Below are positions 32,776-38,585 of a stretch of DNA of 64,000 nucleotides, piece after piece. Made by a program: the position numbers and the translations under genes. The notes under the pieces are model-generated. The model did no database searches. It saw only the letters and a program-made list of their open reading frames with translations, and was not told the origin of the DNA. Each line of letters opens with the position of its first letter. The first letter of the stretch is position 1. This DNA is from Cellulomonas iranensis NBRC 101100 = JCM 18110 (GTDB taxonomy: Bacteria > Actinomycetota > Actinomycetes > Actinomycetales > Cellulomonadaceae), in NCBI RefSeq assembly GCF_001552375.1, contig NZ_BCRB01000006.1:1-64000 (forward strand), given 5' to 3'.

Positions 32776-33462
32776 TCAGGTGCCGGGGATGGACTGCTGG
32801 GCCTGCGCGACCTCGCGCGTCAGCTCCGCCTTGAGCGGAGCGACGGCCGAGGCGTCGGGGTAGAGGTCGAGCGACGCCAGGTGCTGCTTGGCCTCGAGGG
32901 GACGGTCGGCCAGCAGCGCGGCGTGCACGAGCGCGCGCGCGACCTCGGGGGCGTGCTCGCGGGGACGCCAGTGCCCGACGCCGAGGTTGAGCGCCTCGAC
33001 GGGCTGCCCCGCCTCGGACAGCAGCGCGAGCGCCTGCGCGAGCGCGAGCCCGGACGGGTCGCGCTCGGCCGCGGTCGTGAGCCGCCGGATGGTGCCCTCG
33101 TGGTCGTCGCGGACCGAGAGCCGCGCGAGCTCCACGAGCGGGTACCAGGCGCGGGGGTTGCCGGCGAGCTCCTCCCCCAGGGCCCAGACCGCCAGATCGG
33201 CGGCGTGCTGCCGCTCGTGCTCGGCGTTCGGGGCCGTCAGCGGGTCGTCCTCCGGCACGGACTCGGCGGCGCGGCGGCGGACGATCTCGGCGAGCGCCTG
33301 GAAGGCCCGTTCGTTGTTGGGGTCGTCGCTCAGCATCGACCGCAGCGCGTCCTCGTGGAGGGTGTCCCCCCGGCGCGAGGCCGTCGTCGGGCGGCGCGCC
33401 CCGACCCGGGAGGCCGAGGAGGGTCGCCGCATGAGCTGGCGCAGGCGGGGCAGGAGAGCCAT
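32776..33462 (-). CDS. TPR-like hypothetical protein
   Basis: A 228-aa protein with helical repeats that resemble degenerate tetratricopeptides. Examples are ALRSMLSDDPNNERAFQALA, GNPRAWYPLVELARLSVRDD, DPSGLALAQALALLSEAGQP and ADRPLEAKQHLASLDLYPDA. Length, the basic N-terminus and the repeats suggest a cytosolic scaffold found in Micrococcales. ATG 33462 follows TAAGGT by six bases. It is divergent from the FasR-like gene. No assigned function. Confidence 0.75.
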   Translation of the reverse strand: MALLPRLRQLMRRPSSASRVGARRPTTASRRGDTLHEDALRSMLSDDPNNERAFQALAEIVRRRAAESVPEDDPLTAPNAEHERQHAADLAVWALGEELAGNPRAWYPLVELARLSVRDDHEGTIRRLTTAAERDPSGLALAQALALLSEAGQPVEALNLGVGHWRPREHAPEVARALVHAALLADRPLEAKQHLASLDLYPDASAVAPLKAELTREVAQAQQSIPGT

Positions 33463-33537: not shown

Positions 33538-33557
33538 TTTGTCGACTTCCCACAAGC
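33538..33557 (+). promoter_or_regulatory. Candidate FasR operator, site 1 (fasR promoter)
   Basis: TTTGT-N5-TCC-N-ACAAGC, an imperfect inverted repeat (TTGT-N9-ACAA) just upstream of the -10 TATGCT (33566-33571). The same fixed positions recur before fabD. Suggests autoregulation. Confidence 0.6.
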
Positions 33558-33565
33558 CCGCCGCC

Positions 33566-33571
33566 TATGCT
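33566..33571 (+). promoter_or_regulatory. -10 element of leaderless fasR transcript
   Basis: TATGCT ends seven bases before the ATG at 33579. This favours that start over the in-frame ATG at 33567, which lies inside the hexamer. Confidence 0.5.
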
Positions 33572-33578
33572 CGCGGCC

Positions 33579-34832
33579 ATGGCGACGTCTCCGAGGACGC
33601 CGGCGGCGCGCACGCCCCGCCGCCGCGGCACCACCCCGCAGGCCGGCGCGGCGGCCCCCGTCCTCCCCCCGGCCGGAGCCGACCAGAGCGAGACGCAGCG
33701 CCGCGTGCGCGAGGGCGCGGGGCTGCTCGCCGCGGCCGCGATGCGCCGGCTCGACGCCGACCTCGAGTGGTACCGCGCGCTGCCCGCCGAGGACCGGTCG
33801 TGGGTCAACCTCGTCGCGCAGGCCGGCATCACGGCGTTCATCTCGTGGTACGCCGACCCGACGCGCCCGCCGCACGGCGTCGGCGAGATCTTCGCGGCCG
33901 CGCCGCCCGAGCTGACCCGGTCGATCTCGTTGCAGCACACGCTGCAGCTGGTCCGCGTCGTCGTGGACGTCGTCGAGACGCACTCCGACCGGCTCGCGGC
34001 GCCCGGCGCCGAGCGCGAGCTGCGCGAGGCGGTCATGCGGTACTCGCGCGAGGTCGCGTTCTCGGCCGCCGAGGTCTACGCGCGCGCCGCCGAGGTGCGC
34101 GGCGCGTGGGACGCGCGGCTCGAGGCGCTCGTGGTCGACGCGCTCGTGCGCGGCGACGGCGACGACTCGCTGCGCTCGCGCGTGTCGGCGCTCGGGTGGA
34201 GCGGACGCGGCTCGACGCTCGTCGTGGTCGGCACGGCCGCCGCGCACATGGACGAGGTGCGCTCGGCCGACCTGCGGCGCGCGACCCGCCGGTCGGCCGA
34301 CGACGCGCTCGTCGGGATCATGGGCGACCGCCTGGTGGTGTTCCTCGGCGGCGAGGGCGACCTGCGCGCCGCCGCGATGTCGCTGCTGCCGCGGTTCGGG
34401 CCGGGACCCGTCGTCATTGGGCCGCTCGCGCCCGGGCTCGCCGAGGCGACCCGGTCGGCGCGCGCGGCCCTCGCCGGGCTCGCGGCCGCACCGGGCTGGG
34501 AGCAGGCGCCGCGGCCCGTGCTCGCCGACGACCTGCTGCCCGAGCGCGTGCTCGTCGGTGACGACGACGCACGACGTGCGCTCGTCGAACGGGCCTACAC
34601 GCCGCTCGCCGCGAGCCAGGGCTCGCTGCTCGAGACGCTGTCGGCGTACCTCGGCGCGGGGCGCTCGCTGGAGGCCGCCGCGCGCACGTTGTACGTCCAC
34701 CCCAACACGGTCCGCTACCGGCTCAAGCGCGTCGCGGACGTCACGGGGTGGGACCCGCTGGACGCGCGGGAGTCGTACGTGCTGCAGACGGCCCTGGCCG
34801 TCGGGCGGCTCGACGCCGCCGCGGCCCCCTGA
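33579..34832 (+). CDS. fasR: PucR-type regulator, FasR-like activator of fatty-acid synthesis
   Basis: A 417-aa regulator with a central GGDEF-like/PucR region and a C-terminal helix-turn-helix (LSAYLGAGRSLEAAARTLYV, HPNTVRYRLKRVADVTGWDP). In Streptomyces a homologue in the same position, directly before fabD-fabH-acpP-fabF, activates the fab operon (FasR). Position and domain structure support that role here. A 20-bp motif shared by its own promoter and the fabD promoter is the likely binding site. The symbol follows the Streptomyces name, not the unrelated TetR-type FasR. Confidence 0.85.
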   Translation: MATSPRTPAARTPRRRGTTPQAGAAAPVLPPAGADQSETQRRVREGAGLLAAAAMRRLDADLEWYRALPAEDRSWVNLVAQAGITAFISWYADPTRPPHGVGEIFAAAPPELTRSISLQHTLQLVRVVVDVVETHSDRLAAPGAERELREAVMRYSREVAFSAAEVYARAAEVRGAWDARLEALVVDALVRGDGDDSLRSRVSALGWSGRGSTLVVVGTAAAHMDEVRSADLRRATRRSADDALVGIMGDRLVVFLGGEGDLRAAAMSLLPRFGPGPVVIGPLAPGLAEATRSARAALAGLAAAPGWEQAPRPVLADDLLPERVLVGDDDARRALVERAYTPLAASQGSLLETLSAYLGAGRSLEAAARTLYVHPNTVRYRLKRVADVTGWDPLDARESYVLQTALAVGRLDAAAAP

Positions 34833-34868
34833 GCCCCGCGCCCGCCGGAGGCGTGCCGCGACGCGGCC

Positions 34869-34888
34869 TTTGTACAGGTCCGACAAGC
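34869..34888 (+). promoter_or_regulatory. Candidate FasR operator, site 2 (fabD promoter)
   Basis: The same TTTGT-N5-TCC-N-ACAAGC arrangement as at 33538-33557, located 66 bp upstream of the fabD start in the 121-bp gap after fasR. Conserved positions are identical while the spacer bases differ, as expected for a protein-binding site. Confidence 0.65.
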
Positions 34889-34953
34889 ACGGGACCCGAG
34901 GTTGGTACGTGCCGTGACCGGGTGACGGCGCGCGCCCACGGCACAGTGGTCGG

Positions 34954-35925
34954 GTGCTCGTCGTCGCCTGCCCCGGCCAGGGGGCCCAGTCCCCCGGCAT
35001 GCTCGTCCCGTGGACCGAGGTCGACGGCTTCGCCGACTCCCTCGCGCGTGCGAGCGACGTCGTCGGGGTCGACCTGCTGGCCCACGGCACCACGTCCGAC
35101 GCCGAGACGATCCGTGACACCGCGGTGGCCCAGCCGCTGCTCGTCGCCACCGCGCTCGCGAGCCTGCGCGCGGTGCTCGGCACCGACGCCACGACCGACC
35201 TCGCACGGCTCGCGCCCGCGTCGTTCGACGTCGCCGCGGGCCACTCGGTCGGCGAGCTCGCGGCCGCCGCGGCCGCGGGCGTCCTGACCGACGACGACGC
35301 GCTGCGGCTCGTCGCGGTGCGTGGCGCCGCGATGGCGCACGCGGCCGCCGCGACCCCGACGGGCATGAGCGCCGTGCTCGGCGGCGACCCCGACGAGGTG
35401 CTGGCGCGGCTCGAGGCGCTCGACCTCGTGCCCGCGAACGTGAACGGCGGCGGGCAGGTCGTCGCCGCGGGGGCGCTCGACGCGCTCGCCGCGCTCGGCA
35501 CCGAGGCCCCGGCGCGTGCGCGCGTCGTGCCGCTGCAGGTCGCGGGCGCGTTCCACACCCGCTACATGGCGCCGGCCGTCGACGAGCTCGCCGCGGCGGC
35601 CGCCGCGGTGACGCCGCGCGAGCCCGTGGTCACGCTGCTCGGCAACGCCGACGGCGCGGCCGTCACGAGCGGCGCGGACGCGCTGACCCGCATCGTCGGC
35701 CAGGTCGCGCGCCCCGTGCGCTGGGACCTGTGCCAGGCCACGCTGCTCGAGCTGGGCGTCACGGCGCTGCTCGAGGTCGCACCCGGTGGTGTCCTCACCG
35801 GGCTGGCGCGACGTACGCTGCCGGGCGTCGAGACGCTCGCGCTGAAGTCCCCCGCCGACCTCGACGCCGCGCGCGACCTCGTGCGTCGGCACGCCGGCAC
35901 CACCGCACAGGAGAGCCAGTCGTGA
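34954..35925 (+). CDS. fabD: Malonyl-CoA:ACP transacylase FabD
   Basis: Loads malonyl onto ACP for type II fatty-acid synthesis. The 323-aa protein starts with VACPGQGAQSPGM. The nucleophile is in AGHSVGELAAAA (Ser near residue 95), and GAFHTRYMAPA supplies the catalytic His. The GTG start is followed by fabH with a GTGA overlap. First gene of the fabD-fabH-acpP-fabF operon downstream of the FasR-like regulator. Confidence 0.97.
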   Translation: MLVVACPGQGAQSPGMLVPWTEVDGFADSLARASDVVGVDLLAHGTTSDAETIRDTAVAQPLLVATALASLRAVLGTDATTDLARLAPASFDVAAGHSVGELAAAAAAGVLTDDDALRLVAVRGAAMAHAAAATPTGMSAVLGGDPDEVLARLEALDLVPANVNGGGQVVAAGALDALAALGTEAPARARVVPLQVAGAFHTRYMAPAVDELAAAAAAVTPREPVVTLLGNADGAAVTSGADALTRIVGQVARPVRWDLCQATLLELGVTALLEVAPGGVLTGLARRTLPGVETLALKSPADLDAARDLVRRHAGTTAQESQS

Positions 35926-36926
35926 CCCGTCCGACCCTCACGCAGTCCACCGGCCCCGCGCACACGCGCATCCTCGGACTGGGCGGTGTGCGCGGCGAGC
36001 GCGTCGTGCCCAACGACGAGCTCGTGGGCCCCATCGACTCGTCCGACGAGTGGATCCGCCAGCGCACCGGCATCGTCACGCGTCGTCGCGCCGAGGCGGG
36101 CACCGACGTGCTCGACCTCGCCGAGGGTGCCGCGCGCGCCGCGCTCGAGAACGCCGGGCTCACGGGCGCCGACATCGACGCCGTGATCCTGTCGACCGTC
36201 ACGTACTTCCACCAGACGCCCGCCGGCGCCGCGATCGTCGCGGACCGCATCGGCGCGACGCCCGCCGCGGCGTACGACATCTCGGCCGCGTGCGCGGGCT
36301 ACTGCTACGGCATCGGCCAGGCCGACGCGCTCGTGCGCGCCGGCACGGCACGCAACGTGCTGGTGATCGGCGCCGAGAAGATGAGCGAGTTCGTCGACCC
36401 GACGGACCGCACGATCTCGTTCCTGCTCGGCGACGGGGCCGGCGCCGTCGTCGTCGGCGCGTCCGACACGCCCGGCATCGGCCCGACGATCTGGGGCTCC
36501 GACGGCGGGCAGGCGCAGGCGATCCGCCAGACGCACTCGTGGCTCGCGACGCGCGACGAGGGCGCCGGCTGGCCGACGCTGCGCCAGGAGGGCCAGTCGG
36601 TCTTCAAGTGGGCGGTGTGGCAGATGGCGCCCGTCGCGCAGAAGGCCATGGACGCCGCCGGGATCGCCCCCGAGGACATCGAGGCGTTCATCCCGCACCA
36701 GGCGAACATGCGGATCATCGACCAGATGATCAAGCAGCTCAAGCTGCCCGACTCGGTCGTCGTGGGCCGCGACATCGCCGACACCGGCAACACGTCGGCC
36801 GCGTCGATCCCGCTCGCGGCCGAGCGGCTGCTGCGCGAGGGCCAGGTGCCCTCGGGCGCGCTGGCCCTGCAGATCGGCTTCGGCGCGGGCCTCGTCTACG
36901 CCGCGCAGGTCGTCGTCCTGCCCTGA
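35922..36926 (+). CDS. fabH: 3-oxoacyl-ACP synthase III FabH
   Basis: Condenses acyl-CoA primers with malonyl-ACP to start fatty-acid chains. The 334-aa protein carries the Cys-His-Asn triad: ISAACAGYCYG (Cys), FIPHQANMRI (His) and DTGNTSAAS (Asn). DEWIRQRTGI near the N-terminus is also typical. GTG 35922 overlaps the fabD stop by four bases, with AGGAG about nine bases upstream. Branched primers are likely in this group but cannot be deduced from the sequence. Confidence 0.97.
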   Translation: MTRPTLTQSTGPAHTRILGLGGVRGERVVPNDELVGPIDSSDEWIRQRTGIVTRRRAEAGTDVLDLAEGAARAALENAGLTGADIDAVILSTVTYFHQTPAGAAIVADRIGATPAAAYDISAACAGYCYGIGQADALVRAGTARNVLVIGAEKMSEFVDPTDRTISFLLGDGAGAVVVGASDTPGIGPTIWGSDGGQAQAIRQTHSWLATRDEGAGWPTLRQEGQSVFKWAVWQMAPVAQKAMDAAGIAPEDIEAFIPHQANMRIIDQMIKQLKLPDSVVVGRDIADTGNTSAASIPLAAERLLREGQVPSGALALQIGFGAGLVYAAQVVVLP

Positions 36927-37007: not shown

Positions 37008-37256
37008 ATGGCGCACAGCGAGCAGGAGATCCTGGCCGGCCTGGCCGAGATCGTCAGCGAGGAGACCGGTCTGCCGACCGACGCCGTCCTGCCCGAGAAG
37101 TCCTTCACCGACGACCTCGACATCGACTCGCTGTCGATGATGACGATCGTCACGCTGGCGGAGGAGAAGTTCGAGGTCCGGATCCCCGACGACGAGGTCA
37201 AGAACCTCGCGACCGTCGGCGACGCCGTGAGCTTCATCGCGAGCGCCCAGGCCTGA
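37008..37256 (+). CDS. acpP: Acyl carrier protein
   Basis: An 82-aa acidic carrier protein. The phosphopantetheine serine lies in DLDIDSLSMMTIV. The helical segments EEKFEVRIPDDEVKNLATVG are typical. ATG 37008 has GAGGAG about eight bases upstream. It is third in the fab operon, shuttling acyl intermediates between FabD, FabH and FabF. Confidence 0.97.
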   Translation: MAHSEQEILAGLAEIVSEETGLPTDAVLPEKSFTDDLDIDSLSMMTIVTLAEEKFEVRIPDDEVKNLATVGDAVSFIASAQA

Positions 37257-37340: not shown

Positions 37341-38585
37341 ATGAGCACCGTCCCCGAGGTCGTCGTCACCGGCCTGGGCGCCACCACGCCGCTCGGCGGT
37401 GACGTCCCCAGCACGTGGCGCGCCGCGCTCGCCGGCGAGTCCGGCGCCCGCCCGTTCGACAACGACTGGGCCGAGCGCTACGAGATCGGCGTGTCGTTCG
37501 GCGCGACCATCAAGGTCACGCCCGACCAGGTGCTCACGCGCCCCGAGATCAAGCGCATGGACCCGTCCGCGCAGTACGCCGTGATCGCGGCGCGCGAGGC
37601 GTGGGCCGACGCGGGCGCCCCCGAGGTCGACGGCGAGCGCCTGGGCGCGGTCGTGTCGTCGGGCATCGGCGGCATCTGGACGACGCTCGACGCGTGGGAC
37701 ACCCTGCGCGAGAAGGGCGGCCGTCGCGTGCTGCCCATGACCGTGCCGATGCTCATGCCGAACTCCCCCGTCGCGTACGTCTCGCTCGAGCTCGGTGCGC
37801 GTGCGGGTGCGCACGCGCTGGTCTCGGCGTGCGCGTCCGGCGCGGAGGCGATCGGCTACGGCGTCGAGATGATCCGCTCGGGCCGCGCCGACGTCGTCGT
37901 CGCCGGTGGCACCGAGGCCACCATCCACCCCATGCCGATCGCCGCGTTCGCGGCGTCGCGCACGCTGTCGTTGCGCAACGACGACCCGACCGGCGCCTCG
38001 CGGCCGTACGACGTCGACCGTGACGGCTTCGTCATCGGCGAGGGTGCGGGCGTGGTGGTGCTGGAGTCGGCCGCGCACGCGGCCGCCCGCGGTGCGCGCG
38101 TGTACGCGCGCATCGGCGGCGTCGGCCTGTCGGCCGACGGCTACCACATCACGTCCCCCGAGCCGTCGGGCGACGGCCAGGTCCGCGCGATGCGCGCGGC
38201 CCTCGCCGACTCGGGCGTCGCCGCGCGCGACGTCGTGCACGTCAACGCGCACGCGACGTCGACGGTCGTCGGCGACCTCATCGAGGCCCGGTCGATCCGC
38301 GGCGTCCTGGGCGACGACGCCGACCACGTGGCGCTCTCGGCCACCAAGTCGATGACGGGTCACCTGCTGGGCGGCGCAGGCGCGCTCGAGACGATCTTCA
38401 CGGTGCTCGCCGTGCACGACCGGCAGGCGCCCCCGACGATCAACGTCGAGAACCCCGACCCCGAGCTCGTGCTCGACCTGGTGCGCGGCACGCCGCGCGC
38501 GCTGCCGGACGGCCCGATCGCGGCCGTCAACAACTCGTTCGGGTTCGGCGGTCACAACGTCGCGCTGGTGGTCACCTCCGCCTGA
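37341..38585 (+). CDS. fabF: 3-oxoacyl-ACP synthase II FabF
   Basis: Elongating beta-ketoacyl synthase. The 414-aa protein has the nucleophile in VSACASGAEAI (Cys) and the two histidines in VNAHATSTVVGD and TGHLLGGAGALE. NNSFGFGGHNVALV is near the end. ATG 37341 has GAGGAGAA upstream. It is last in the fabD-fabH-acpP-fabF operon and is followed by a terminator hairpin. Confidence 0.97.
   Translation: MSTVPEVVVTGLGATTPLGGDVPSTWRAALAGESGARPFDNDWAERYEIGVSFGATIKVTPDQVLTRPEIKRMDPSAQYAVIAAREAWADAGAPEVDGERLGAVVSSGIGGIWTTLDAWDTLREKGGRRVLPMTVPMLMPNSPVAYVSLELGARAGAHALVSACASGAEAIGYGVEMIRSGRADVVVAGGTEATIHPMPIAAFAASRTLSLRNDDPTGASRPYDVDRDGFVIGEGAGVVVLESAAHAAARGARVYARIGGVGLSADGYHITSPEPSGDGQVRAMRAALADSGVAARDVVHVNAHATSTVVGDLIEARSIRGVLGDDADHVALSATKSMTGHLLGGAGALETIFTVLAVHDRQAPPTINVENPDPELVLDLVRGTPRALPDGPIAAVNNSFGFGGHNVALVVTSA

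Follow-up and report, generated by a model that had tools for sequence, protein, structure and literature searches.

A predicted FasR operator at the fasR, fabD and fabG-fabI promoters of Cellulomonas

In Cellulomonas iranensis NBRC 101100, the gene fasR lies directly upstream of the fabD operon, as it does in relatives, and this arrangement raises the question of whether the encoded regulator recognizes a DNA element common to both promoters. The stretch analyzed here, hereafter the window, comprises the first 64,000 nucleotides of contig NZ_BCRB01000006.1. It carries fasR on the forward strand (33579..34832), which encodes a PucR-type regulator with a Pfam GGDEF_2 domain (PF17853) and a C-terminal HTH_30 domain (PF13556). 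The protein is orthologous to FasR of Streptomyces and to MabR of mycobacteria. Its best PDB matches are domains of M. tuberculosis MabR, Rv2242 (9f80/9fb1), and its identity is 51-53% to Streptomyces-like copies and 42-44% to mycobacteria-like copies, wherein both labels are inferred from kinship and from these same identities. The HTH recognition segment VH[PA]NTVRYRL is common to 13 of 13 aligned FasR/MabR-type proteins. The domains, the identity to Streptomyces-like copies, the shared HTH segment and the gene order bear out the proposal of an earlier note on this locus that the regulator is homologous to Streptomyces FasR and lies in the same synteny.

The fasR start codon (ATG at 33579) follows a -10 element, TATGCT (33566..33571, forward strand), that is kept in 52 of 53 aligned Cellulomonas promoters, and the transcript is apparently leaderless. 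The downstream operon, also on the forward strand, begins with fabD (34954..35925; malonyl-CoA:ACP transacylase, Acyl_transf_1) and continues with fabH (35922..36926), acpP for acyl carrier protein (37008..37256) and fabF (37341..38585), the last three as read from the ORF list. The fabD -10 element, CACAGT (34942..34947, forward strand), is accompanied by the sequence GGCA.aGT.GtCggGTG conserved in 57 promoters, and the GTG at 34954 likewise appears to start a leaderless message.

A quasi-palindrome upstream of fasR and fabD

The motif TTTGT-N5-TCC-N-ACAAGC had been reported at 33538-33557 and 34869-34888, and direct reading of the window verifies both positions exactly. The first copy, TTTGTCGACTTCCCACAAGC, precedes fasR. 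The second, TTTGTACAGGTCCGACAAGC, ends 65 bp before the fabD start codon. Pattern searching of the whole genome (3,966,347 bases, ~3.97 Mb) finds two exact copies only, and these are the same two sites. When up to 2 mismatches are allowed, the motif is matched at 5 places and a reversed control pattern at 3. The pattern was derived from the two sites themselves before counting, and because it was fitted to them, match counts from a single genome amount to weak or at most modest evidence.

The conserved portion of the motif is a quasi-palindrome, TTGT-N9-ACAA, with an inner GG..CC symmetry that yields the symmetrised consensus TTGT-R-GG-N3-CC-Y-ACAA. Its 17-bp core in the window is TTGTCGACTTCCCACAA at 33539-33555 before fasR and TTGTACAGGTCCGACAA at 34870-34886 before fabD, both given for the forward strand. 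The TCC of the original motif is one arm of the inner symmetric element. Many Cellulomonas fabD promoters conserve a GGA arm beside TTGT in place of TCC, so the fabD site is flipped in many relatives, and the terminal GC is also variable. The identical fixed positions noted earlier are therefore real for the two window sites, but the TCC and the terminal GC among them are partly accidental and vary in relatives. The literal pattern TTTGT-N5-TCC-N-ACAAGC is too narrow as a definition of the motif.

The earlier note had suggested phylogenetic footprinting of the fasR-fabD regions, and within Cellulomonas the motif is indeed kept. The core TTGT-N9-ACAA is present upstream of fasR in 58 of 58 loci, of which 56 fall inside a strict window and the other 2 are further upstream because the predicted N-terminus is longer. 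Upstream of fabD it is found in all 57 readable loci. The surrounding intergenic columns have mostly diverged in the genus, except for the -10 regions and one extra box at fabD. What these alignments show is where the sites lie, how well they are conserved, how they are arranged and that they go with fasR loci.

Across 61 genomes, TTGT-N5-TCC-N-ACAA has 134 matches, compared with 32 for the reversed control. Most of the matches (86) are at fasR or fabD, another 35 are directly before fabG-fabI, and the 13 that lie elsewhere have no target in common. One pair of matches (L094 and L097, both at 1501-1517) is orthologous between two related Cellulomonas species, and in L094 the match is followed, after about 120 bp, by a dehydrogenase E1-alpha-like gene. 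If this gene belongs to a branched-chain keto acid dehydrogenase, branched fatty-acid primers would come from it.

Palindromes of the form TTGTCCG-N3-CGGACAA were also considered as further FasR sites; they recur but were set aside for their different inner sequence. A perfect example, TTGTCCGATTCGGACAA, precedes an FtsH-like AAA+ ORF on contig 57 of the C. iranensis genome (L041:532-548), and it or a close variant was found in most of 10 relatives searched. Because its inner sequence differs from that of the FasR operator, this palindrome probably serves another regulator.

A predicted third target and two promoter geometries

An unbiased scan of the genome returned not only fasR and fabD but also, outside the window, fabG-fabI. 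In C. iranensis this third operator lies directly before the fabG-fabI operon on contig 11 (40644-40660; L005:1503-1519), and the near match to the full motif on that contig, TTTGTCGAGGTCCCACAACG, is the site just upstream of the operon. The exact core occurs in 57 of the 58 assessable Cellulomonas fabG promoters. When the 26 genomes lacking a strict-pattern match were examined at fabG-fabI, 22 carried the exact core and 1 a core with a single mismatch; the remaining 3 were not assessable owing to a contig end or to the lack of an adjoining fabG. FabG and FabI are both reductases of the FAS-II cycle and therefore, together with the products of fabD-fabH-acpP-fabF, cover most of the core pathway. 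Since the same site is found at fasR and fabG-fabI as well, one switch probably runs most of this pathway. Several Cellulomonas genomes also have an extra fabI copy without a neighbouring fabG (L387-L390).

The sites fall into two arrangements relative to the promoter elements. In the window, a gap of 55 bp separates the fabD core from the downstream -10, and the distance from the first base of the core to the start codon is 84 bp (84-85 bp across Cellulomonas). The fabG operator is separated from its -10 by 55 bp in 47 Cellulomonas promoters and by 56 bp in 10. By comparison, the gap at fasR is only 8-10 bp in Cellulomonas (10 bp in the window, measured from the 17-bp core), which places the operator over the -35 region and the spacer, with the core spanning roughly -39 to -23. 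All three genes look leaderless, and their start codons lie 12-14 bp past the first base of the -10. The 55-bp gap between operator and -10 offers a rule for predicting FasR-activated promoters.

A further element lies between the operator and the -10 of Cellulomonas fabD, wherein a box, GGTTGGTgCg.GCCGTGACCGGG, is conserved in the window (34900-34925) and in relatives. It includes a possible weak second half-site, TTGGTACG (34902..34909, forward strand), 32 bp downstream of the start of the operator core, although such a half-site would account for only part of the box. In operator-matrix scoring, a secondary peak at +32/+33 downstream of the operator appears in 4 of 5 sets of activated promoters, namely fabD of Cellulomonas, of other Micrococcales and of Streptomyces/mycobacteria-like genomes, and fabG of Streptomyces-like genomes. 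The Cellulomonas fabG promoters show no secondary +32/+33 peak by the same scoring. Because MabR forms both tetramers and dimers (PMC11617747), a weaker second contact closer to the polymerase is conceivable. A second FasR half-site 32-33 bp downstream of the operator is suggestive only.

Because the geometry differs, with the operator at about -76 in fabD and over the -35 region in fasR, the same protein may act oppositely at the two promoters. We consider it somewhat more probable that FasR represses fasR than that regulation runs in the other direction. An unlikely, but serious, alternative is that FasR binds its own promoter and activates it. The activity of FasR/MabR as an activator at fabD (PMC5541348) is in keeping with positive autoregulation, and activation is easier to imagine in one Micrococcales family, wherein the fasR site sits ~25 bp before the -10. 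However, a protein positioned on roughly -39 to -23, as in Cellulomonas, would normally exclude the polymerase.

Relation to the operators of MabR and Streptomyces FasR

The closest known counterpart is the MabR operator at PfasII of M. tuberculosis, which has the same half-sites, the same 9-bp spacer and the same place before fabD. The recognition sequence of MabR there is 5'-TTTTGT(N)9ACAAAA-3', binding has been shown by gel shift, and replacement of this sequence abolishes both binding and isoniazid-induced activation (PMC5541348). Compared with it, the window sites (TTTGT-N9-ACAAG) have equal inner half-sites and differ in the outermost bases. The regulator is an orthologous PucR-type protein in both cases, whereas the M. 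tuberculosis operon is fabD-acpM-kasA-kasB rather than fabD-fabH-acpP-fabF. Streptomyces FasR, which is 42% identical to MabR, recognizes a highly similar repeat near -67 (PMC5541348), and in Streptomyces coelicolor FasR (SCO2386) activates the operon from this operator in the gene order fasR-fabD-fabH-acpP-fabF, as found here. The mycobacterial protein Rv3208 is also named FasR and also regulates fatty acid synthase genes, but it belongs to the TetR family, activates the fas-I operon and is unrelated to the fasR of the window.

Outside Cellulomonas, both sites are present in nearly all named loci of Cellulosimicrobium, Sanguibacter, Oerskovia and Promicromonospora, and likewise nearly always in those of Actinotalea, Flavimobilis, Puerhibacterium and Sediminihabitans. 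Other Micrococcales families mostly retain the fabD site at 80-86 bp from the start codon, in some cases with 1 mismatch; the site at the fasR promoter is frequent, yet missing in some. Of 119 Micrococcales genomes, 22 gave no FasR hit. Among three Streptomyces-like and four mycobacteria-like genomes, the fabD site lies at 85 or 99 bp, and the exact core was absent from every fasR promoter. In the four mycobacteria-like genomes read, no site was found at the mabR-type gene.

The fabG promoters differ more widely. Streptomyces-like genomes carry a variant, CTGT-N9-ACAG (consensus CTGTAGGGACCCGACAG); all 29 promoters read have it 55 bp upstream of the -10. In the mycobacterial family a site is found in 1 of 29 fabG promoters, which agrees with the published finding that mabA-inhA is preceded by no consensus MabR site although inhA drops upon MabR depletion (PMC5541348); Cellulomonas fabG-fabI does have such a site. 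In other Micrococcales families, most fabG promoters also lack the operator, so only part of the order shares this arm of the regulon. Three other Micrococcales genomes (L226-L228), whose fabG promoters have no FasR site, have a GGTAGTC-containing element resembling TACCGnnnGGTAGTCGGTAG in common there, which perhaps belongs to another regulator.

We infer from sequence that FasR binds the sites described here. It is quite improbable that the operator instead belongs to another regulator that co-ordinates fasR, fabD and fabG. Binding by FasR in this organism is a prediction, the position and palindromy of the site would suit many dimeric regulators, and SCO3201, when over-expressed, is another protein able to bind the fasR promoter in Streptomyces coelicolor (PMC7324645). 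Against this, the sequence is that of the proven MabR operator, it is found at the corresponding position next to the orthologous gene, and the proteins have the same recognition segment.

Still less credible is the idea that the fasR-side site acts on the divergent gene (32776..33462, reverse strand; no Pfam match) rather than on fasR. The site does lie between the two divergently transcribed genes, with 77 bp separating it from the ATG of the divergent one. Among relatives, however, anything between 61 and 132 bp separates the operator from the divergent gene, whereas the spacing to the fasR -10 is always 8-10 bp. The divergent gene was rejected as a target for this reason, and the operator is assigned to fasR. 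Finally, that two short AT-richer stretches should resemble each other by chance in a genome of 74% G+C is a negligible prospect: the pattern was picked after both sites had been seen, and at up to 3 mismatches the window holds 4 matches where 0.8 are expected, but all examined Cellulomonas loci keep the sites at fixed spacing, and genome-wide enrichment is confined to fab loci.

A model for FasR control of fatty acid synthesis

Conservation, the orthologous regulator and the match to the published MabR operator agree with the proposal that the motif is a FasR binding site. In our judgment, it is very probably the operator through which FasR activates the fabD operon and fabG-fabI and, less surely, restrains its own promoter. 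A FasR dimer would recognize the quasi-palindrome TTGT-NGG-N3-CCN-ACAA. From a position ~76 bp ahead of the fabD start, the dimer would activate the fabD-fabH-acpP-fabF operon, and from an equal distance (~-76) it would activate fabG-fabI. On the -35 region and spacer of its own promoter, FasR would limit fasR transcription, giving negative autoregulation. The signal that raises the affinity of FasR for DNA is probably long-chain acyl-CoA, by analogy with MabR, whose affinity increases with C18-C22-CoA (PMC5541348).

A more extended version of this model can be put forward only tentatively. FasR would directly control most of the core FAS-II pathway, acting on fabD-fabH-acpP-fabF and fabG-fabI from -76 while repressing itself, and a tetramer might reach the polymerase via the weak half-site, roughly three helical turns further downstream. 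Its scope would be Cellulomonas and close relatives, with Streptomyces included through the sequence variant and the mycobacteria without the fabG-fabI arm.

The regulator and its operator are thus of a known kind, found in a new genus. The reading of the motif as a FasR operator is upheld; that it is the palindrome already described for MabR had been overlooked, as had the differing geometry of the sites and the third target, fabG-fabI. In the openly readable literature we found no description of FasR/MabR autoregulation or of a direct fabG-fabI site. As far as we could find, the autoregulatory site and the fabG-fabI target had not been described before, and together with the rule of a 55-bp spacing they are what this analysis adds.

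The product of inhA is the target of isoniazid. The fabG-fabI site bears on a mycobacterial puzzle, namely that inhA falls with MabR depletion without a MabR site of its own (PMC5541348). The direct site in Cellulomonas and its variant in Streptomyces-like genomes suggest that control is direct in these organisms and indirect in mycobacteria. A regulator known mainly from mycobacteria and one Streptomyces is now extended, with a precise operator, to a large group of soil actinobacteria.
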